In this document: one piece after another, positions 1 to 22,018 of the stretch
How positions within the stretch are numbered: the stretch's first letter is position 1
Layout of the letters: every line of letters starts with the position of its first letter
IMG/VR virus record: IMGVR_UViG_3300029798_000040
Location: 1 to 22,044 of that record
DNA from: a virus
DNA: 22,044 nucleotides
Direction: 5' to 3' (one strand)
Program-made: the position numbers and the translations under genes
The notes under the pieces: model-generated
Told to the model about the DNA's origin: nothing
The model's database searches: none
The model's input: the letters and a program-made list of their open reading frames with translations, nothing else

Positions 1-496
1 CATAAACATCATCTATATAATTACCATCTAGTACCATTGCTATTTTGGTATCTTTTCCTATGAGATAAATGAGAACATCTAGATTATCTGCATATTCATA
101 CCAATGTTTATATAAGCTATGATGGGCAGTGCACCACTTGGCAGTACCTTTACCTATCTTGTTTGATGCGATTAGTTTGCTAGCTTCCCAGGTAAGTGGG
201 ATGTAGGCCTGGAATGGAAAATCTGCAGGTACCTTTAGTTCAAGATAATCCTTGCCATCTTTGAGCCCGGCGATGCCCTGCTTCTTTACCATCCTGGTTC
301 TTTCGGTCTTCGTCGTGGCCATGACATCCGCAAAATCCTTAAAGGCAAGACCCTTCTTTTGCCAGTCAATCTTGTTCTCTAGGTTTGGTTTCTTTGCAAA
401 AAAATCCTTAAGTTCCTTCTTTTGGTGATCGGTAATCGCTAGCTTATCTATCAGGTGGTCCTTCTTCTCTGTTATGTATGTCTTAAATGATTTCAT
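1..496 (-). CDS. Partial phage protein of unknown function, runs off the left edge
   Basis: An open frame of 165 codons starts at an ATG at 496 and is still open at position 2, so the C-terminus is outside the window. The start MKSFKTYITEKK is basic and short, a style common at the N-termini of T4-like virion and prohead proteins. Around residues 115-135 there is a segment GKGTAKWCTAHHSLYKHWY. A G-T-x-K-W-C-T/I pattern followed by aromatic residues recurs in phage proteins of unknown function, and I know no activity for it. The ATG overlaps the stop of the gene at 493-1329 as ATGA, implying translational coupling. Positions 181-480 are about 45% G+C by hand count against about 32% next door, and lysine is mostly AAG rather than AAA, so base and codon use differ from its neighbours. 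Confidence 0.8.
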   Translation of the reverse strand, partial: MKSFKTYITEKKDHLIDKLAITDHQKKELKDFFAKKPNLENKIDWQKKGLAFKDFADVMATTKTERTRMVKKQGIAGLKDGKDYLELKVPADFPFQAYIPLTWEASKLIASNKIGKGTAKWCTAHHSLYKHWYEYADNLDVLIYLIGKDTKIAMVLDGNYIDDVY

Positions 497-1329
497 TTTT
501 TATTTTTAAATTCTGTTATAGAATCTAATGATACTTTACCATATTTTAAAAAACATATTTGACCTGTAGTCTCACACTTCAAGATAACTGGCATGTTTGG
601 GTTACTAATTGCATATGATCTAATTTGTTCTCCCAACTCAGCTCTTCCTACATATTTATCATATTTGTTATATCTATTCTTTGCAGACTTTGCTTCTATA
701 AATGTTGGGGTATCAACAGTGAAAACTTTAAAATCACCATGTGATTCGACTCCATTGCCTTCTGGTATTGCATAAACAACTGGAGCTCTTCTAATCATAG
801 CATCCTTTTTCTGTTTTCTTCTTAATGCACCAACAGTTGAAGTTGGTATTTGTAACGTAGGCAGATCTCCAGTTACTTCTTCATTTATCATTTTATCTTC
901 TTTAATGAGACAATGAATCTCTGTTAATATTGGTATGAAATTTGTATTAGATGAATGAACTTTATCGTATATTTGTTTATATTTTTCTATAAGAAGTTTT
1001 TCATCATTTTCTTGTTCTATATGAAAAGTTCTATTCTTTTCCTCTTTAAGTAAAAGCAATGCTGCAATTAAAGAAGCCATCATCGTTTTGCCCGCAGGAA
1101 GTTTACCTAAAAGTTTCTTTAAGTTAAATACCATCACTGTAAAATAGGTATATGCATTTTTTTGCTCATCTGTTGTGAAATCTTTTCTAGGAATTAAATT
1201 ATTGCCATATTTATCTATAATACCAAGTTTAAATGCGTCTGTTTTATCAAATGGAATAACAAGACGTTTAATAAATTGATATGCATATAGCAAATCCCAG
1301 TATTTCCCTTCAAATAAAAACTGAGTCAT
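493..1329 (-). CDS. Conserved T4-like phage protein, function unknown
   Basis: A 278-residue soluble protein with no signal peptide or membrane segment. The N-terminal half carries stretches such as AYQFIKRLVIPFDKTDAFKL, then KNAYTYFTVMVFNLKKLLGKLP near residues 58-79, which I recall from uncharacterised proteins of T4-like phages. The C-terminal half is basic around residues 165-180 (ALRRKQKKDAMIRRAP), as in many phage structural or assembly proteins, but that is not evidence of a role. The start ATG at 1329 overlaps the stop of the upstream gene as TAATG, and the stop overlaps the next ATG as ATGA, so it sits inside a translationally coupled run of four genes (2869 to 1). The gene call is secure; the function is not known. 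Confidence 0.85.
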   Translation of the reverse strand: MTQFLFEGKYWDLLYAYQFIKRLVIPFDKTDAFKLGIIDKYGNNLIPRKDFTTDEQKNAYTYFTVMVFNLKKLLGKLPAGKTMMASLIAALLLLKEEKNRTFHIEQENDEKLLIEKYKQIYDKVHSSNTNFIPILTEIHCLIKEDKMINEEVTGDLPTLQIPTSTVGALRRKQKKDAMIRRAPVVYAIPEGNGVESHGDFKVFTVDTPTFIEAKSAKNRYNKYDKYVGRAELGEQIRSYAISNPNMPVILKCETTGQICFLKYGKVSLDSITEFKNKK

Positions 1330-5803: not shown

Positions 5804-6919
5804 TTATTCTTCAAACTCTTTGAAATCTTCAACTGTATTGGAGATATCACTAACATTAGCACCTATTTTAAATAATTCTGATTGATCTACAGATACTTTA
5901 AGTCCTTCCTCTATAGTTTTAACAAATGTAGTATTCTCAAAAATATTTGTCCAGAATTCTTCAGAATCCTCTATATCTTTTTTCCATGCCTTTTTAAATT
6001 CTGGTAATTCAGGGACAGCATACATCATTCCTTCTTTCATTAAAAAGCCAGTCTCTAATGCAAGATCAAACAGGCCTGAATATTTCTTAATCTGTCCACC
6101 TTCAGGTATTGTAATTGGAAATTTAATTCCTTCTTTTATAAATCTAGATTTCTCTGCTTTAATCATAAAATCGAACCCAGCTTCTTCCTTATTATCATTC
6201 TTACGACGAGACATGATGAGTGCAGAATTTGCAGATAGGAGTACTCCTGTTCCACCACTTATTACTGCTTTGCTATAGATTTCCTGAGTCATATAAATGT
6301 GATTAACAACAAAAAGTGGAATATTTTTCAGATTTACTCTTGGCGTTATCATTCTAAAAAAGCTTTTTAACATTTTTGCGCGGGACATATCTTGAGTTGA
6401 TTTTCCATCCTGTGCATCAGATACTTCTTTAAGAGATGCCAAATTTCCAATACTATCTATTAAAATGAAGATGTGTTCTCCATTATTAATGGAATCTACC
6501 TGACTTATAATATCGTTCTTAAGTTTGTCTATATCAACTATAGGTGTTATGAATATTCTGTTAATATCTATCCCAAATGAAGCTAAATACTCTGGGGTAA
6601 ATGAGAACTCTGAATCATAAAGCATTCCTATCGCGTCTTCATGTGCGTCCATATATGCCTTTAAACAAAGAAGGCAAATGTTAGTCTTAAAGGTTTTTGA
6701 CAGTCCCGCAAATACAGTTAAACCTCGTGTTATTCCTCCTTCAAAAAATTTACCAGATAGTGCTAAATTTATTACTGGGATAGGAGTTGGGATGGATTCC
6801 TTTATCATATAAAGATCAGAATCTGAAAAAACTGACGATTCTTCAACAGAAGACGTCTTCTTCATTCTTTTTAGGATATCATATGCTTTGCTATTTTTTG
6901 TTACTTCTGCTTTTGCCAT
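5804..6919 (-). CDS. uvsX: Recombinase UvsX (RecA-like)
   Basis: A strand-exchange ATPase that coats single-stranded DNA and drives recombination-dependent replication and repair. The 371 residues follow T4 UvsX throughout: PTPIPVINLALSG near 44-56, Walker A GLSKTFKT at 72-79 (T4 has GPSKSFKS), YDSEFSFTPEYL near 101-112, Walker B IFILIDSIGN at 150-159, the VVNHIYMTQEIYSK region with the following GGGTG-like segment (L2 loop), and an acidic C-terminal tail (TVEDFKEFEE) like that of T4, which modulates loading. Length is close to T4's 391. Neighbours are the tRNA-like RNA 45 nt upstream and helicase 41 downstream. There is no clear Shine-Dalgarno site. Confidence 0.96.
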   Translation of the reverse strand: MAKAEVTKNSKAYDILKRMKKTSSVEESSVFSDSDLYMIKESIPTPIPVINLALSGKFFEGGITRGLTVFAGLSKTFKTNICLLCLKAYMDAHEDAIGMLYDSEFSFTPEYLASFGIDINRIFITPIVDIDKLKNDIISQVDSINNGEHIFILIDSIGNLASLKEVSDAQDGKSTQDMSRAKMLKSFFRMITPRVNLKNIPLFVVNHIYMTQEIYSKAVISGGTGVLLSANSALIMSRRKNDNKEEAGFDFMIKAEKSRFIKEGIKFPITIPEGGQIKKYSGLFDLALETGFLMKEGMMYAVPELPEFKKAWKKDIEDSEEFWTNIFENTTFVKTIEEGLKVSVDQSELFKIGANVSDISNTVEDFKEFEE

Positions 6920-6964
6920 TGTGTAGTATTTGTATTATTAGGAAGGATGTTATATATTAATTTG

Positions 6965-7109
6965 TGGAGTAAATGGGGTTCGAACCCAATAAATAATCAC
7001 GGTATTACTAAAGAACATTCTCTGTTCATCAAGTCCTCCAATGTTGCGATCATTGTAGAGTTATAACCAGTTCTGTTTTTCGCTAATTATTTCTAACCTG
7101 TGTTACCCC
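6965..7109 (-). ncRNA. 145-nt tRNA-like RNA with tmRNA-like closing helices
   Basis: The minus strand gives a 5' GGGGTAA (7109-7103) that pairs with a 3' TTACTCC (6972-6966; one G-U), followed by A as discriminator. Before it stands a T arm, GGG TTCGAAC CCC. A further 9-bp helix joins AAATAATTA (7092-7084) to TGATTATTT (6999-6991), placed where tmRNA has its P2 helix; no D arm is seen. Inside lie CAATG-ATCGCAA-CATTG (7055-7039, a 5-bp stem with a 7-nt loop like an anticodon arm) and GAACA-GAGAA-TGTTC. It begins 6 nt after the tmRNA 3' end, the spacing of phage tRNA clusters. CCA is not encoded. It is far longer than a tRNA and shorter than any usual tmRNA; a degenerate or interrupted tRNA is an alternative. 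Confidence 0.6.
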
Positions 7110-7115
7110 ATTTTG

Positions 7116-7481
7116 TGGAAGTGGAGGGAGTCGAACCCTCGTACAACCAAACGAAAAATAAAAGTGTTACAGTCATGTTTGTGTTATTGTTCGGTAATTG
7201 ACTTCCCACAAACAGGAAGAGATATACCTAGTTTCAAATTTAGTACATTGGTGAGATGAAACTTCGGACCAAAGACGACTGCTAATATTTTTAGATGATA
7301 ACTACTCAGCGTCTATATAGTTATCAAATTTGGTGTTTGTCTGTTAAGATCAAGCAGCCATGCGATACTCGAAAGTGTCTGCATTTATTGTTTACATAGA
7401 CTTCTTTAACGAGTCCATCCATGCTGAAACTCGAACTGCACTCCTATTTAACTATTTGACTGGCAAAATCCCGTCACCCCC
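7116..7481 (-). ncRNA. ssrA: Transfer-messenger RNA (tmRNA)
   Basis: A 366-nt tmRNA, an RNA that is charged with alanine, enters stalled ribosomes and adds a degradation tag. The acceptor stem pairs GGGGGTG (7481-7475) with CACTTCC (7123-7117; two G-U), followed by discriminator A at 7116. The T arm is GAGGG TTCGACT CCCTC. Helix P2 is 11 bp: AAATAGGAGTG (7449-7439) with CACTTTTATTT (7166-7156). A hairpin ATGGACT/AGTCTAT fits pseudoknot 1, ending 13 nt before the resume codon. The tag frame (7382-7350) reads GCA GAC ACT TTC GAG TAT CGC ATG GCT GCT TGA, giving ADTFEYRMAA, with the expected terminal M-A-A. An 8-bp hairpin GATAACTA/TAGTTATC and others follow. CCA is not encoded. No SmpB gene is visible, so host SmpB is presumably used. 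Confidence 0.94.
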
Positions 7482-7495
7482 ATTATTACAACTAG

Positions 7496-7684
7496 TTACT
7501 CAGTTAAAAGAGTTTTATCAGATGAGTTTTCTTCTGCTACGGTTGAATTATCTATCAATGCTTGCTTATAGCCCAGCAACTGTTGAAACTCTGTAGACAA
7601 ATTGTTGATCGTCTGATTCTCTTTTGCAACCTCATTTTGAATTTCCTTTAGTCTCGATTCTACTTGTTCAATTGTTATTGCCAT
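7496..7684 (-). CDS. Small coiled-coil protein
   Basis: A 62-residue protein whose residues 5-45 (EQVESRLKEIQNEVAKENQT onwards) look like an amphipathic coiled coil, ending in an acidic, Ser/Thr-rich tail. No family recognised. The start is well supported: GAGG stands 8 nt before the ATG. The leader and first codons are identical over 21 nt to those of the gene at 7711-7947. Its stop lies 14 nt before the 5' end of the tmRNA, so the RNA is probably processed from the same transcript. Confidence 0.75.
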   Translation of the reverse strand: MAITIEQVESRLKEIQNEVAKENQTINNLSTEFQQLLGYKQALIDNSTVAEENSSDKTLLTE

Positions 7685-7696
7685 TGTTTTTCCTCG
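7676..7696 (-). repeat. 21-nt duplicated ribosome-binding and start region, copy 1
   Basis: On the minus strand this segment runs CGAGGAAAAACAATGGCAAT plus one further A, covering the Shine-Dalgarno site, spacer, ATG and the first codons. It is identical to 7939-7959, which begins the preceding gene. Confidence 0.8.
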
Positions 7697-7710
7697 GTTT
7701 AATTATTTAT

Positions 7711-15834: not shown

Positions 15835-16926
15835 TTAATCTTTCTCCTTAACAAGAAAGATGTTTGAGATTGCCTTGAATGACTTCTCTCTCTTTAAAGT
15901 CTTAAAAATAATACCTTCACGATTTATATTGGAGTTCAATATAGATTTACCATCAGCTAAAGATAAAATATTTTCTATTGTAAGTAATTCAATACTATTC
16001 AACATATCTATGAACGGTACTTGTTTAAGTTCAAAAATTTGACATATATCATCCAATTCATTCACAGAAAGATATTTTTGTTTATCAATATCATATCCAT
16101 TAAATATATAAATATCTTGACCTTTAATTTTGTATGGATTTTTTTGAATACCTTCACCAATCACTTCACCCTGAATGGCTATATTTCTTCCAATATTCTT
16201 AAATTTTTCTTCTAAAGAATATCTTCTAGCAATAGACCAAAGAGTATTACCTTCTATTTCCTTCAAGTCAAGATTTCTTGAACATACACCAAAATAGTCA
16301 TTGTTTTTATAGATGGTACAAGATGTGCCGTCGAGCTTTTCCGTAACAATATATGATAATTTCTTCAGATTATCCCATTCATTAGTAAGATTTTGACATC
16401 TTTCTTCGTCTGTCCGTGGAATAAAAGAAGGAAACATACCAATAACCTCACCTGCTAGACATGCTGGAATAGGTGCTTCATATTTAAGAATACCCAAAAG
16501 ATCAGTAAAATCTAATTTTGTTATTTCTTCTTCTCCTTGTGTTTTACCTAATACTGCAATTAAATCATCCAATAAATCAAGAACAGGATACGGTCCATGT
16601 AATACATCAAGAGAATAATTTTTAATGCATGTAAGTGGAAGCAAAAGACCCTGAGAAATTTGTCCTCTCAATTTAATTGTTCTTAGTCTTTCTCCTTTAA
16701 CACCATTATATTCACGCGGTTCTTTTCCCTTTGAAAGAAAAGATGCTATCTCTGTGGGAACCCAGGAATCTACCTCTAAATAAATTACAAGATCGCCTGG
16801 CTGGTATAATCCTTTTTGCGAGACGACCTTCCATCCATCGACGGTAACGACCTCAATAGAATCTGCACCTTCGATGGGATTGATTTCTAAAATTCTTCTT
16901 ACTGTTGCTAATTTTCTCTCAGACAT
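15835..16926 (-). CDS. RNA ligase, DraRnl/Rnl5-like
   Basis: An ATP-dependent RNA ligase of 363 residues. Residues 1-60 (SERKLATVRRILEINPIEGA, then GWKVVSQKGLYQPGDLVIYL) form the N-terminal OB-like domain typical of the Deinococcus DraRnl (Rnl5) group, whose studied member seals 3'-OH/5'-phosphate nicks in RNA. The nucleotidyltransferase domain follows: motif I EKLDGTS with K197, SRN at 216-218 (motif Ia), motif III IAIQGEVIG near 249-257, IIIa YIFNGYDI at 273-280, motif IV REGIIFK at 336-342, motif V SFKAISNIFLVKE near 349-361. Start: ATG 16926 with GGGAG 8 nt upstream, preferred over a GTG seven codons earlier. It overlaps the stop of the upstream gene by 8 nt. Likely substrate: cleaved tRNA or other nicked RNA. 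Confidence 0.93.
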   Translation of the reverse strand: MSERKLATVRRILEINPIEGADSIEVVTVDGWKVVSQKGLYQPGDLVIYLEVDSWVPTEIASFLSKGKEPREYNGVKGERLRTIKLRGQISQGLLLPLTCIKNYSLDVLHGPYPVLDLLDDLIAVLGKTQGEEEITKLDFTDLLGILKYEAPIPACLAGEVIGMFPSFIPRTDEERCQNLTNEWDNLKKLSYIVTEKLDGTSCTIYKNNDYFGVCSRNLDLKEIEGNTLWSIARRYSLEEKFKNIGRNIAIQGEVIGEGIQKNPYKIKGQDIYIFNGYDIDKQKYLSVNELDDICQIFELKQVPFIDMLNSIELLTIENILSLADGKSILNSNINREGIIFKTLKREKSFKAISNIFLVKEKD

Positions 16927-17191
16927 AATCAATTCTCCCAACTTCACTCAATTTATAAGTTACAATTTTTATTCCTTTATTTTTTGCTACTCTTTGTGCT
17001 GCTTGTAATGCATATTGACCAGGATTTGCCTTTTTAAGATATAAATCTGGTTTAGGAAAAGCATTTGTTAATGCACTAGTTGCATGATTTTTCTTTTTCC
17101 ATACCTTTCCTAGTTCTTCTTTTTCGACCCAATCTCCTCCCTCTTTCATCCAGAGTGCACTATTCTCATTGTATATTTTATAGACTATCAT
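16919..17191 (-). CDS. Small phage protein, function unknown
   Basis: A 90-residue basic protein. The opening YKIYNENSALWMKEGGDW followed by GKVWKKKNHATSALTNAF recalls a family of small uncharacterised phage proteins with a pattern YKI-x-x-x-x-x-G-L-F-S-x-GG ... GKxW ... HL. The C-terminal half is lysine-rich with an amphipathic helix (YALQAAQRVAKNKGIKIVTY). It overlaps the RNA ligase gene by 8 nt, so the two are co-translated; whether they work together is unknown. Confidence 0.75.
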   Translation of the reverse strand: MIVYKIYNENSALWMKEGGDWVEKEELGKVWKKKNHATSALTNAFPKPDLYLKKANPGQYALQAAQRVAKNKGIKIVTYKLSEVGRIDYV

Positions 17192-19711: not shown

Positions 19712-19713
19712 AA

Positions 19714-19781
19714 TATAATATTTAGTTATTTTTCTTATAATATAATATACAACAAAATGCAACAAAAAAGAAATTTTATTT
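19714..19781 (-). repeat. 68-bp promoter-like direct repeat, copy 1
   Basis: Matches 20090-20157 over 68 bp with one substitution. It ends 3 nt before the start codon of the gene at 19277-19711. On the minus strand it contains TTGCAT, a 17-nt spacer and TATAAG, a plausible sigma70-type promoter, followed by an A+T-rich leader with no Shine-Dalgarno site. Duplicated promoter cassettes of this kind often drive early phage genes. Confidence 0.75.
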
Positions 19782-20085: not shown

Positions 20086-20089
20086 GATA

Positions 20090-20157
20090 TATAATATTTA
20101 GTTATTTTTCTTATAGTATAATATACAACAAAATGCAACAAAAAAGAAATTTTATTT
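20090..20157 (-). repeat. 68-bp promoter-like direct repeat, copy 2
   Basis: Nearly identical to 19714-19781 (one A/G difference). It lies between the Thg1-like gene, whose last two codons it includes, and the gene starting at 20085. The same TTGCAT-17 nt-TATAAG arrangement is present on the minus strand. Confidence 0.75.
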
Positions 20158-20967
20158 ACAAATTGTTACTATCGGTTCTGCATTATTAAAAATAACATCA
20201 ACTTTATTCGTGATTTTATGAAAAATAGGATATTCTATAGATTTGATTATATGACGTTCAAATGACATCTGAGGATCTTTATGTGCTCTATGTTTTACTG
20301 GTAGATCTTTTAATTCATCTTCTGTGAATTCATTAAAAACTTTGACGCGTTTTACATATGAACCTCTTTTATTTTTTGTAGGTAAATCATTCCAATTTAC
20401 AGATTTTTCTAACATCATCTTATCCTGCATTTCAGAACCACTAAGACCCTGCAACTCTTTATGTGAAAATAAACTTTGTGCAACGCTGGAAATGCTATTT
20501 TTTGTAGCATCGTTTTCTATCCATAGTAATTGAACACACGCATCATGTAAAGTCGGAGTCTGGTATATTCGACAATCAAATGTAGCTATTTTATTATGTT
20601 CTGGTAAATATGATTCCCTAACAGAATTGAAATGATTTACACATTTAGCAGTTAGCTTAGAAAGAATTTTTTGTTTTTTTCCGTCGTTATATAATGATGA
20701 CTTTTTATCATCACTGTAAAGAATAAGAGTAATCTCATCGCTTTGTGTATAACCAATAACAGCATTAGTTTCTTCTACTAAAAACTTAGTAGTATCAATC
20801 ATTAAGTTGTTCAAATTTTCATCGAATGGTCTATTAAGTCCCTTTGTCCAAGAATGAAAATTATTACCATCTAATCTGATTATAACGGGAAGAGTTGGAA
20901 TCATCACTTCTGTTGAAAAATTACGTTCCAACCATTTACACCAATCACCTAAAGTTTTAAATTTCAT
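20152..20967 (-). CDS. tRNA-His guanylyltransferase-like 3'-5' polymerase (Thg1 family)
   Basis: A 271-residue Thg1-superfamily enzyme, which adds nucleotides to the 5' end of RNA in the reverse direction. Thg1 itself adds G-1 to tRNA-His; bacterial and archaeal Thg1-like proteins (TLPs) can repair 5'-truncated tRNAs. Diagnostic features: VIIRLDGNNFHSWTKGLNRP near 28-47 with metal-ligand D33, and YTQSDEITLIL near 73-83 with S76, D77 and E78 (the catalytic SDE). The later FDCRIYQTPTLHDACVQLLW region and the basic segment KRGSYVKRVK also fit. It lies 10 nt after the HNH/RNA-ligase gene, so the two are probably co-transcribed, which suggests joint work on damaged tRNA. No Shine-Dalgarno site is seen. 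Confidence 0.92.
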   Translation of the reverse strand: MKFKTLGDWCKWLERNFSTEVMIPTLPVIIRLDGNNFHSWTKGLNRPFDENLNNLMIDTTKFLVEETNAVIGYTQSDEITLILYSDDKKSSLYNDGKKQKILSKLTAKCVNHFNSVRESYLPEHNKIATFDCRIYQTPTLHDACVQLLWIENDATKNSISSVAQSLFSHKELQGLSGSEMQDKMMLEKSVNWNDLPTKNKRGSYVKRVKVFNEFTEDELKDLPVKHRAHKDPQMSFERHIIKSIEYPIFHKITNKVDVIFNNAEPIVTICK

Positions 20968-20977
20968 AATATTTAAT

Positions 20978-22018
20978 TCAACATAATTTATTGATTTTGT
21001 GATTAGACGAACCGTAGAACCAATGCTTCTGTGTTGCTACATGGTTCGGTCTAACATATTTTGCTATACTCTTCCTAAACTCGATATAAGAGAATTTTGA
21101 CGCAGTTCTTACAACATAACCTTCATGTACATCTCTGTCTGTTTTTTCATTATACAGTTGCCTTATAATATCTTCATCCCAAATACCATCATAAAGTATT
21201 GGAACCATAGGAAACGCCAGAAGTTGGAACCACTCTACAGTATCATCCCATGAAAGACATTCGTTCTTGTCGTTCCATATAGAAAAACCAAGAAGATATC
21301 CTTCCAAGTCATTATAAGACAAAGAATGTTCGGCGTACATATTCTCAGCACAAACTCTCCATCCCTTAGGTAGTTGGTATGACCTCTGCATCCAGAAATT
21401 TTTTGCCCAGTCTCTTGTATAATGTGAACGACCATCGACCGACCTGGCGTGGCAATAATCTGTATACCCAGAAAAGTTTTCTCCGTCCATTTTCCTGGTA
21501 ACGATAACCCTTTTACCTTCAAACACAGATGTATCTGCCATAACCCTATCATCATCTGTTATTCCTGGTGACCAAGGTAAATGGTATGTTCTTGGATATT
21601 TTACATAATCGGTGAATAGGTATAATCTTGACTCAATAACCCTTTGCACAGATTCATCGTTAAATAATGGTCCTTTAGTTCGATTACCATTTCCCAGTAT
21701 TATATTTCCCCATTTATCGTAAATATGGTCTGAATACATATCATCAGGAAGACATATCGATTCTATTTTCGCTGCAATTCTGATATCTTCAACACTCAAC
21801 TCAGTTGTTTCTGCTTTGTAGTGACAACCGTTTTTACCATCATCACACAAAGTTGCGCCATTATCGACGTAGTAACCCCCATCATTCCATAGTCTTCTTT
21901 CTATGATATGATGAGCATCGAGTGATATACCATCAGAGATTTTCCTTCCACAGACAACACACTGGTTGTTATCTCTACTAAAAACTTCTTCTCTAAATTT
22001 TTCTCTACTTAATAACAT
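20978..22018 (-). CDS. HNH nuclease domain fused to an RNA ligase
   Basis: A 346-residue two-domain protein. Residues 10-70 are an HNH/zinc fold: CVVC at 20-23, DAHHIIERR at 34-42, VDNGATLC at 51-58 and CHYKAE at 65-70. Residues about 120-335 are a nucleotidyltransferase ligase: FTDYVKYPRTYHLPWSPG near 135-152, motif I RKMDGEN with adenylated lysine K176, RVCAENMYAEHS near 221-232 (motif III, E225), YLLGFSIWND near 241-250 (IIIa), HEGYVVR at 298-304 (IV) and SIAKYVRPNHV near 317-327 (V). I recall the same architecture from other phages and bacteria, where it is called an RNA ligase family protein without assigned biology. Whether the HNH part cuts or only binds RNA is unknown. It heads the visible transcription unit, before the Thg1-like gene. 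Confidence 0.9.
   Translation of the reverse strand: MLLSREKFREEVFSRDNNQCVVCGRKISDGISLDAHHIIERRLWNDGGYYVDNGATLCDDGKNGCHYKAETTELSVEDIRIAAKIESICLPDDMYSDHIYDKWGNIILGNGNRTKGPLFNDESVQRVIESRLYLFTDYVKYPRTYHLPWSPGITDDDRVMADTSVFEGKRVIVTRKMDGENFSGYTDYCHARSVDGRSHYTRDWAKNFWMQRSYQLPKGWRVCAENMYAEHSLSYNDLEGYLLGFSIWNDKNECLSWDDTVEWFQLLAFPMVPILYDGIWDEDIIRQLYNEKTDRDVHEGYVVRTASKFSYIEFRKSIAKYVRPNHVATQKHWFYGSSNHKINKLC

Follow-up and report, generated by a model that had tools for sequence, protein, structure and literature searches.

A tRNA-like RNA of 145 nt with an alanine-type acceptor beside the tmRNA gene of a T4-like phage

Mitochondrial tmRNAs that have no mRNA-like domain are known. In phages, tmRNAs were recorded in 402 of 18,146 genomes in one survey (PMC9004378), and mycobacteriophage DS6A is described as encoding a 'TLD-only' tmRNA, little more than a tRNA-like domain (PMC4131195). 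A molecule similar to this TLD-only tmRNA strongly inhibits tmRNA, perhaps by titrating SmpB (PMC4131195, citing Mao et al. 2009). Phage tRNAs, for their part, can differ so as to escape tRNA-cutting defences (PMC13096335, PMC10264068). Phage tmRNAs, one TLD-only form and T4 RNA C are thus already known. Here, we describe a 145-nt tRNA-like RNA lying directly behind a phage tmRNA; paired with a tmRNA in this way, an RNA that accepts alanine would provide a compact locus for testing titration of the rescue machinery directly.

Genomic setting and tRNA-like ends

The stretch of DNA analysed (the window, 22,044 bases) is a 100% identical slice of a 112-kb IMG/VR contig, with 31.6% GC, and has a T4-like phage gene set including UvsX, a DnaB-type helicase, a split DNA polymerase, a clamp and a clamp loader. 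On the minus strand, the tmRNA is followed by the 145-nt RNA, 45 bases and uvsX (Table 1). The coordinates of the 145-nt RNA given in the first-pass annotation proved exact, with G1 at 7109 and A73 at 6965, and so did the gap of 6 nt (CAAAAT) to the tmRNA, whose discriminator base lies at 7116.

Table 1. Features of the tmRNA-uvsX locus and of the 145-nt RNA, with window coordinates
Feature	Position	Strand	Basis or remark
Phage tmRNA, tag ADTFEYRMAA	7115..7481	-	ARAGORN; Rfam RF00023, 104.8 bits, E 2.4e-40
145-nt tRNA-like RNA	6965..7109	-	Acceptor, T arm and A73, 6 nt past the tmRNA; uncalled by ARAGORN, Rfam tRNA and Rfam tmRNA
uvsX	5804..6919	-	PHROG 97, E 1.3e-69; start 45 nt beyond the 145-nt RNA, same strand
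Acceptor helix, 5' strand GGGGTAA	7103..7109	-	Pairs with 6966-6972
Linker CACAGGTTAG, like tmRNA D-loop (GG.UU..GA)	7093..7102	-	Aligned to 5' end of permuted-tmRNA model, 18.3 bits, E 0.059, sub-threshold; compared with phage tmRNA ends
P2-like helix, 5' strand AAATAATTA	7084..7092	-	Pairs with 6991-6999; p 0.00185; outside minimum-energy fold
Weak D-arm-like hairpin AGAACTGGTTATAACTCT	7057..7074	-	Sequence reading; 3 pairs, one base 5' of anticodon-like arm; retained in two-deletion variants called tRNA-Ala
Anticodon-like arm CAATG-ATCGCAA-CATTG, U33, anticodon CGC (Ala)	7039..7055	-	0.075% of 20,000 shuffled interiors, post hoc
Hairpin GAACA-GAGAA-TGTTC	7013..7027	-	Pair probability ~0.67
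Tiny frame ATG..TGA (MNRECSLVIP)	6997..7029	-	GGAGG at 7035-7039; no tmRNA-like tag; may be chance
P2-like helix, 3' strand TGATTATTT	6991..6999	-	Pairs with 7084-7092; same basis as 5' strand
T arm TTGGG-TTCGAAC-CCCAT	6973..6989	-	4/5 pairs; no strict T arm in shuffles totalling 22.5 Mb
Acceptor helix, 3' strand TTACTCC	6966..6972	-	A73 at 6965, trailer CAAATT

No terminator-like site was found from 6850 to 7700, an interval covering the tmRNA, the 145-nt RNA and the start of uvsX, and the single promoter-like site there, fewer than shuffles yield, lies upstream of the tmRNA; between the 145-nt RNA and uvsX, neither a promoter-like nor a terminator-like site was found. Two further unusual RNAs were read in the same virus. 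One, at L067:1501-1617, is a 117-nt tRNA-Gly(GCC) whose variable region is longer by about 50 nucleotides and holds, in the added part, a second T-arm-like hairpin; at 33.1 bits it lies above the Rfam tRNA cut-off in one scan and is missing from the gathering-threshold scan, and a pattern search of viral_contigs found no second copy of its insertion. The other, at L066:1501-1563, is a 63-nt tRNA-like RNA (Rfam tRNA, 49.8 bits) with a perfect acceptor, D arm and T arm, in which a 12-nt connector replaces the anticodon arm. With the RNA's last base written before the slash, the 3' trailer starts A/CAA in four of the five tRNA-type RNAs read in this virus, namely the tmRNA (A/CAAAAT), the 145-nt RNA (A/CAAATT), the tRNA-Gly (A/CAATTA) and the 63-nt RNA (A/CAAAAA), the exception being tRNA-Asp (G/CTAATA); the same four have T as the base preceding position 1.

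Elsewhere in the window, a Thg1-like tRNA 5'-end enzyme (20152-20967) directly adjoins an RNA ligase whose start weakly matches HNH (20978-22018), and these form a tRNA or RNA repair set with a second RNA ligase (15835-16947, minus strand). A 69-bp AT-rich direct repeat (19713-19781 and 20089-20157, 98.6% alike), possibly a promoter, lies around or just upstream of two minus-strand gene starts. The segment of about 500 bp at window positions 1-501 occurs at three further places of the 112-kb contig with 85-92% identity, and a fourth, partial match spans 207 bp.

The acceptor helix of the 145-nt RNA is complete, as had been claimed, its 7 bp consisting of six Watson-Crick pairs and G3·U70. G3·U70 is the main determinant for alanyl-tRNA synthetase (AlaRS), and its presence together with A73 bears out the alanine-type acceptor. 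The T arm, likewise described earlier as complete, does abut the acceptor and has the loop TTCGAAC, but its outermost pair is U.U, leaving four of five pairs. Dinucleotide shuffling of the 112-kb contig, repeated 100 times (22.5 strand-Mb), produced no strict T arm (GGG-TTCRANY-CCC); the real contig holds two, one being that of the 145-nt RNA with its acceptor. A looser T arm with a 7-bp acceptor occurred 70 times in the 100 shuffles (0.0031 per strand-kb), which corresponds to about 6e-4 expected per 200-base stretch beside the tmRNA. From these counts, we conclude that the ends of the 145-nt RNA are real; the sequence elements and their positions are beyond chance. A chance resemblance, in favour of which it may be said that the interior, taken alone, barely exceeds shuffles in structure (z of -1.24 for the inner 127 nt), is almost certainly not the explanation, given the absence of strict T arms from the shuffles and the low expectation for the loose combination beside the tmRNA. 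The 145-nt RNA is very probably a real RNA that is processed as tRNAs are.

Its position also bears on the reading as a processing signal, in which the acceptor-T fold would let RNase P and 3' nucleases cut the transcript and thereby set the 5' end of the uvsX message. The same-strand location 45 nt before uvsX, with no promoter-like or terminator-like site between, agrees with this, but the 3' end of the tmRNA already provides such a cut just upstream and a simple tRNA would suffice, and we regard this reading as highly improbable.

Interior structure and tests against tRNA and tmRNA

A 9-bp helix at the position of tmRNA P2 had been proposed from the sequence. The complementarity of its strands was confirmed (p 0.00185, 20,000 dinucleotide shuffles) and the helix encloses 84 nt, in line with the previous figure of about 80, but the minimum-energy fold is formed without it. 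That fold, at -31.7 kcal/mol, keeps the acceptor and breaks both the T arm and P2. When acceptor and T arm are imposed, the RNA folds at -30.4 kcal/mol into two long arms and another 9-bp helix (AAUGAUCGC/GUGAUUAUU) is preferred; adding the Ala anticodon arm gives -28.3 kcal/mol, and adding P2, with or without the anticodon arm, -25.8 kcal/mol, so that P2 costs 4.6 kcal/mol relative to forcing acceptor and T arm. The energies do not discriminate among the candidate interior folds.

An anticodon-type arm that is absent from the first-pass annotation was found in the interior. A 5/7/5 arm with U33 and purine 37 has a p of 0.021 in 20,000 shuffled interiors, and the same arm with an Ala anticodon a p of 0.00075, a value for a property picked after it had been seen. 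The anticodon CGC agrees with the alanine-type acceptor of the RNA. The earlier statement that there is no D arm becomes debatable with the weak D-like hairpin 5' of this arm. P2 and the anticodon arm are mutually compatible, and the strands of P2 coincide exactly with the two segments that a tRNA-Ala reading treats as insertions; if both are real, the RNA would have a natural shape intermediate between tRNA-Ala and tmRNA. A protein remnant was also considered and rejected, the 50-residue frame through the 145-nt RNA having only matches with E of about 9 in phages.

ARAGORN, Rfam models and a deletion test agree with the earlier view that the 145-nt RNA conforms neither to the normal tRNA pattern nor to that of a standard tmRNA. 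ARAGORN, run with and without introns, made no call on it at default settings, and relaxed thresholds gave only calls off the acceptor register; the Rfam tRNA model had no match on it at E up to 10. The alternative raised in the first-pass annotation, a normal tRNA carrying an intron, was not recovered, as none of 1235 single-deletion variants was called a tRNA. Applied to 14 other enlarged tRNA-like RNAs of phages, the same test yields a tRNA call for 13, although it is permissive because interior-shuffle controls were positive (2/20 for the 145-nt RNA, 11/20 and 15/20 for two others). Among two-deletion variants, 77 of 4589 were called by ARAGORN, all as tRNA-Ala(CGC). Of 40 shuffled interiors treated in the same way, 15 gave some tRNA call and none an Ala call, with Ala calls in 4/40 and 8/40 at looser thresholds.

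These results bear on the possibility that the RNA is a stretched tRNA-Ala(CGC), whose core has gained two insertions, one of about 26 nt that separates the acceptor from the D arm and one of about 42 nt within the variable region, which pair with each other as 'P2'. Such a tRNA may be inactive, may be spliced or repaired, or may resist host tRNA-cutting defences. In this case, the match between the Ala anticodon arm and the Ala acceptor (post hoc, as stated) would be accounted for, as would the two-deletion calls of tRNA-Ala(CGC), of a kind seen in 0/40 shuffled interiors. The same virus has the tRNA-Gly(GCC) enlarged in its variable region, with Gly(gcc) in 427 of 748 single-deletion calls, and the 63-nt tRNA that lacks the anticodon arm; cleavage of variable loops by Septu and a resistant variable loop of T5 tRNA-Tyr are described in a published account (PMC13096335); and two RNA ligases and a Thg1-like tRNA 5'-end enzyme are encoded in the window. 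However, two separate insertions are required, the D arm has 3 pairs, 15/40 shuffled interiors also give some tRNA call, and no motif has been established as common to the insertions of other phages. Position 8, a near-invariant U in tRNAs, is C. Overall, we consider a stretched tRNA-Ala unlikely, yet a serious alternative to our preferred reading.

A reduced tmRNA, an idea also raised earlier, is possible. The acceptor, the T loop, the candidate P2-like helix and the D-loop-like linker CACAGGTTAG speak for it; the RNA's CACAGGTTAGAAA has GG.UU..GA, comparable to the tmRNA D-loop analogue without a D stem (UGGAUUCGAC type). Against it, RF00023 had no match on 6965-7109 at E up to 10, and no Rfam tmRNA match reached the gathering score. 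A sub-threshold permuted-tmRNA match (18.3 bits, E 0.059) spans the 3' end of the tmRNA and the first 18 bases of the 145-nt RNA, and the remaining Rfam matches at E up to 10 are the neighbouring tmRNA and two unrelated sub-threshold ones on the plus strand. GAC precedes the T stem in the tmRNAs of L106, L107, L108 and L271; the window tmRNA has TAC, and GAC is absent from the 145-nt RNA. The only frame found, MNRECSLVIP with a GGAGG of its own, is not of the tmRNA type that encodes a protease tag, and the 84 nt inside P2 would, judged by length, be too few for the four tmRNA pseudoknots. Outside the T arm, no similarity of the 145-nt RNA to its own tmRNA beyond chance was detected, 69% of shuffles scoring as high. 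As a side observation, tmRNA tags ending in FEYRMAA (ADTFEYRMAA, DDNFEYRMAA and GDNFEYRMAA) occur in four viral contigs (7115-7481 on the minus strand of the window, L106:5749, L107:7181(-) and L108:3555).

Relatives and other unusual tRNA genes in phages

In viral_contigs, an exact 20-mer of the RNA was found in the parent contig only, and the acceptor/T-arm pattern in the parent contig and L105 only, where it belongs to an enlarged tRNA-Leu-like RNA. A loose form of the pattern gave no homolog by eye after the acceptor filter among 80 of 106 stretches, and the pattern had 0 matches over genome_contigs. A search with UvsX returned 62 loci, two of which, besides the parent, are near (70-72%). 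ARAGORN, applied to 38 of the 62, found a tmRNA only in the parent, a lower bound because it misses the tmRNA of the 72% relative (L107). This relative has a same-tag tmRNA upstream of uvsX, followed by a hairpin element and another gene, without the 145-nt RNA; the element (L107:6940-6860, minus strand) is a hairpin-rich 60-nt stretch (GAAGG...CCTTC) between tmRNA and uvsX, and the gene after it was judged by eye to look like one for a mobile endonuclease. In the 70% relative, uvsX is not directly preceded by a tmRNA. A search with the C-terminal part of the polymerase gave three loci, one of them the parent, and no relative of the 145-nt RNA. Comparison of the 145-nt RNA with its own tmRNA, T4 rnaC and rnaD, the tRNA-Gly RNA and the element of the 72% relative revealed no shared sequence beyond shuffles. 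One copy of the 145-nt RNA is known, with no homolog in the sequences searched.

A single copy that is absent from the nearest relatives would also be expected of a decaying tRNA or tmRNA copy, whose 3' end (T arm and acceptor) persists by recent descent as the interior drifts, without function. The weak folding z, the U.U in the T stem and the other tRNA-like oddities of the same genome fit such decay. However, none of the seven acceptor pairs is broken, although some 130 nt separate the two strands, and the T loop, A73 and the trailer are preserved too, whereas decay would strike these equally; outside the T arm, there is no similarity to the neighbouring tmRNA (69% of shuffles, as above). 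We hold decay to be doubtful but, like the stretched tRNA-Ala, a serious alternative.

The survey brought up other odd tRNA genes in phages. Apparent circularly permuted tRNA genes, in which a T arm and 3' acceptor strand are followed, after 0-50 nt, by the 5' acceptor strand, a D arm and the start of an anticodon arm, were seen at L272-L276 (462-kb contig of L204), L278 and L280 (contig of L197), L146:12912 and 14139, L154:5704(-), L109:273, L108:3875, L175:8599, L190:7343 and 12787(-), L243:7277(-) and L257:2160(-), where (-) positions count on the reverse complement. In a T-arm scan of phage loci, partly picked for odd tRNAs so that the counts give no frequency, 84 of 879 distinct strong T arms had no upstream acceptor partner; a downstream partner was present in 10 of these 84 (control 1.3), together with a D arm in 8 (control 0.5). 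In the 462-kb phage contig, all six copies of the motif GGGTTATC...T arm are permuted, against none in a reversed-pattern control, and a helix of 7-14 bp flanks every copy, its sequence differing from one to the next with the pairing kept, for example TGTGACGGGC/GCCCGTCACA, AATGGGC/GCCCATT, GATGAGC/GCTCATC and ATTTGTGGGC/GCCCACAAAT. In a second contig, 3/3 are permuted with helices of the CAGATAC/GTATCTG type, one of them with a 6/7 acceptor. Permuted copies within one genome share the motifs GGGCCGATAG..AGGGTTATC and ACTTGCCC. Across 18 hand-picked cases, the longest flank helix averaged 7.94, compared with 6.54 for swapped flanks (maximum 7.33 of 100). The layout of these genes suggests small permuted introns. 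We found no description of permuted tRNA genes in phages in the literature searched, which mostly lacked subscription papers and preprints.

Phage tRNA genes with insertions of 50-90 nt, mostly in the anticodon region and too small for group I introns, were noted at L216, L237, L190, L178, L229, L139, L140 and L163; several of them have, by eye, a common ATAGT.A....GRGTTACTT-like 3' end. At L163:6128, a 45-nt acceptor-T element is nested inside another tRNA.

Possible role in ribosome rescue and comparison with known systems

Our preferred reading, to which we assign a probability of about 0.36, is that the 145-nt RNA is not a coding tRNA but a processed RNA that accepts alanine, has an upper half like that of a tmRNA and acts as a competitor for SmpB, AlaRS or EF-Tu. 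We infer its transcription, processing, charging, binding and function from the elements and positions described above. The tmRNA and the uvsX message would share one transcript, from which the 145-nt RNA would be cut, RNase P forming its 5' end at 7109 and host 3' processing with CCA addition its 3' end after A73. The top half, comprising the acceptor with G3·U70, A73, the T arm and the GG-containing linker, may be recognised by AlaRS, EF-Tu and SmpB, so that the RNA should be charged with alanine. Below it, the putative P2-like helix would act as a spacer, and the interior probably could not reach the decoding centre in the manner of a normal tRNA and would provide no proteolysis tag. The most likely action would be competition, in which binding of SmpB, AlaRS or EF-Tu damps or tunes trans-translation during infection, as proposed for molecules like the DS6A 'TLD-only' tmRNA.

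Consistent with a competitor, acceptor, T arm and A73 lie directly behind a bona fide tmRNA with no terminator-like site between tmRNA, 145-nt RNA and uvsX; G3·U70 is present, and the A/CAA trailer, found in four of five RNAs, is accompanied in those four by T before position 1. The P2-like helix (p 0.002) and the failure of any single-intron reading to give a tRNA point the same way. In addition, SmpB had no match at E up to 1 in the virus's 112 kb, with 12 of 14 control genomes positive, and the host SmpB would therefore be the target. On the other side, P2 is outside the minimum-energy fold, at the cost given above; the RNA lacks the GAC that lies before the T arm in most of the phage tmRNAs compared, and it is not matched by tmRNA models. 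The nearest relatives lack the 145-nt RNA and no homolog was found, and hence there is no sign of selection on the interior. A tmRNA inhibitor next to the phage's own tmRNA would also be odd.

A view that joins the competitor with the alanine tRNA is that of a stretched alanine tRNA standing between tRNA-Ala and tmRNA, with an acceptor-T minihelix, a P2-like spacer made from two insertions, and D-like and CGC anticodon-like arms beyond it, which, in tandem with the true tmRNA, would tune trans-translation. A phage locus for ribosome rescue would then have a second component that lacks a tag; we judge this combination improbable.

Still less probable, in our estimate, is a stable late RNA of the T4 RNA C type, with a tRNA-like fold, long arms and a role that is probably regulatory. 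The T4 tRNA cluster ends with rnaC (139 nt), which has the T arm CCGGG-TTCGAAT-CCCGG and long extra arms, and RNAC and RNAD are described as late-expressed, with roles unknown (PMC9697503, PMC3014915). Yet no similarity in sequence links the 145-nt RNA to rnaC (an equal or higher score was reached by 69% of shuffles), and rnaC has neither a clean 7-bp acceptor nor alanine identity.

Among the known systems, T4 RNA C (species 1 RNA, 139 nt) and RNA D (119 nt) are phage-encoded and similar in length to the 145-nt RNA, the T4 pair lying in a tRNA cluster; RNA C also has a T arm, together with long extra arms. Neither shares sequence with the 145-nt RNA, RNA C is without a clean acceptor helix or alanine identity, and no T arm was seen in RNA D. 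The DS6A TLD-only tmRNA, compared by its description (PMC4131195), is likewise a phage-encoded RNA with a tRNA-like domain; it is accepted as a tmRNA, whereas the 145-nt RNA matches no tmRNA model, has 84 nt inside P2 and has a full tmRNA alongside. Compared with tRNA-Ala, the 145-nt RNA is twice as long, has C8 and no clean D arm, and receives no ARAGORN or Rfam tRNA call, although both have G3·U70, A73, a T arm and, possibly in the 145-nt RNA, an arm with the Ala anticodon CGC. Phage tRNAs with group I introns or small inserts resemble it in having an intact acceptor and T arm around an enlarged interior, but a single deletion restores a tRNA call in 13/14 of those tested and never in the 145-nt RNA. 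Different from the one-piece tmRNA (RF00023), it measures 145 rather than 367 nt, is tagless and too short for the usual pseudoknots, lacks GAC before the T arm and has no covariance-model match; what the two have in common is an alanine acceptor with G·U as the third pair, the T loop and, as candidate elements in the 145-nt RNA, a GG-containing D-loop-like linker and a helix at the position of P2.
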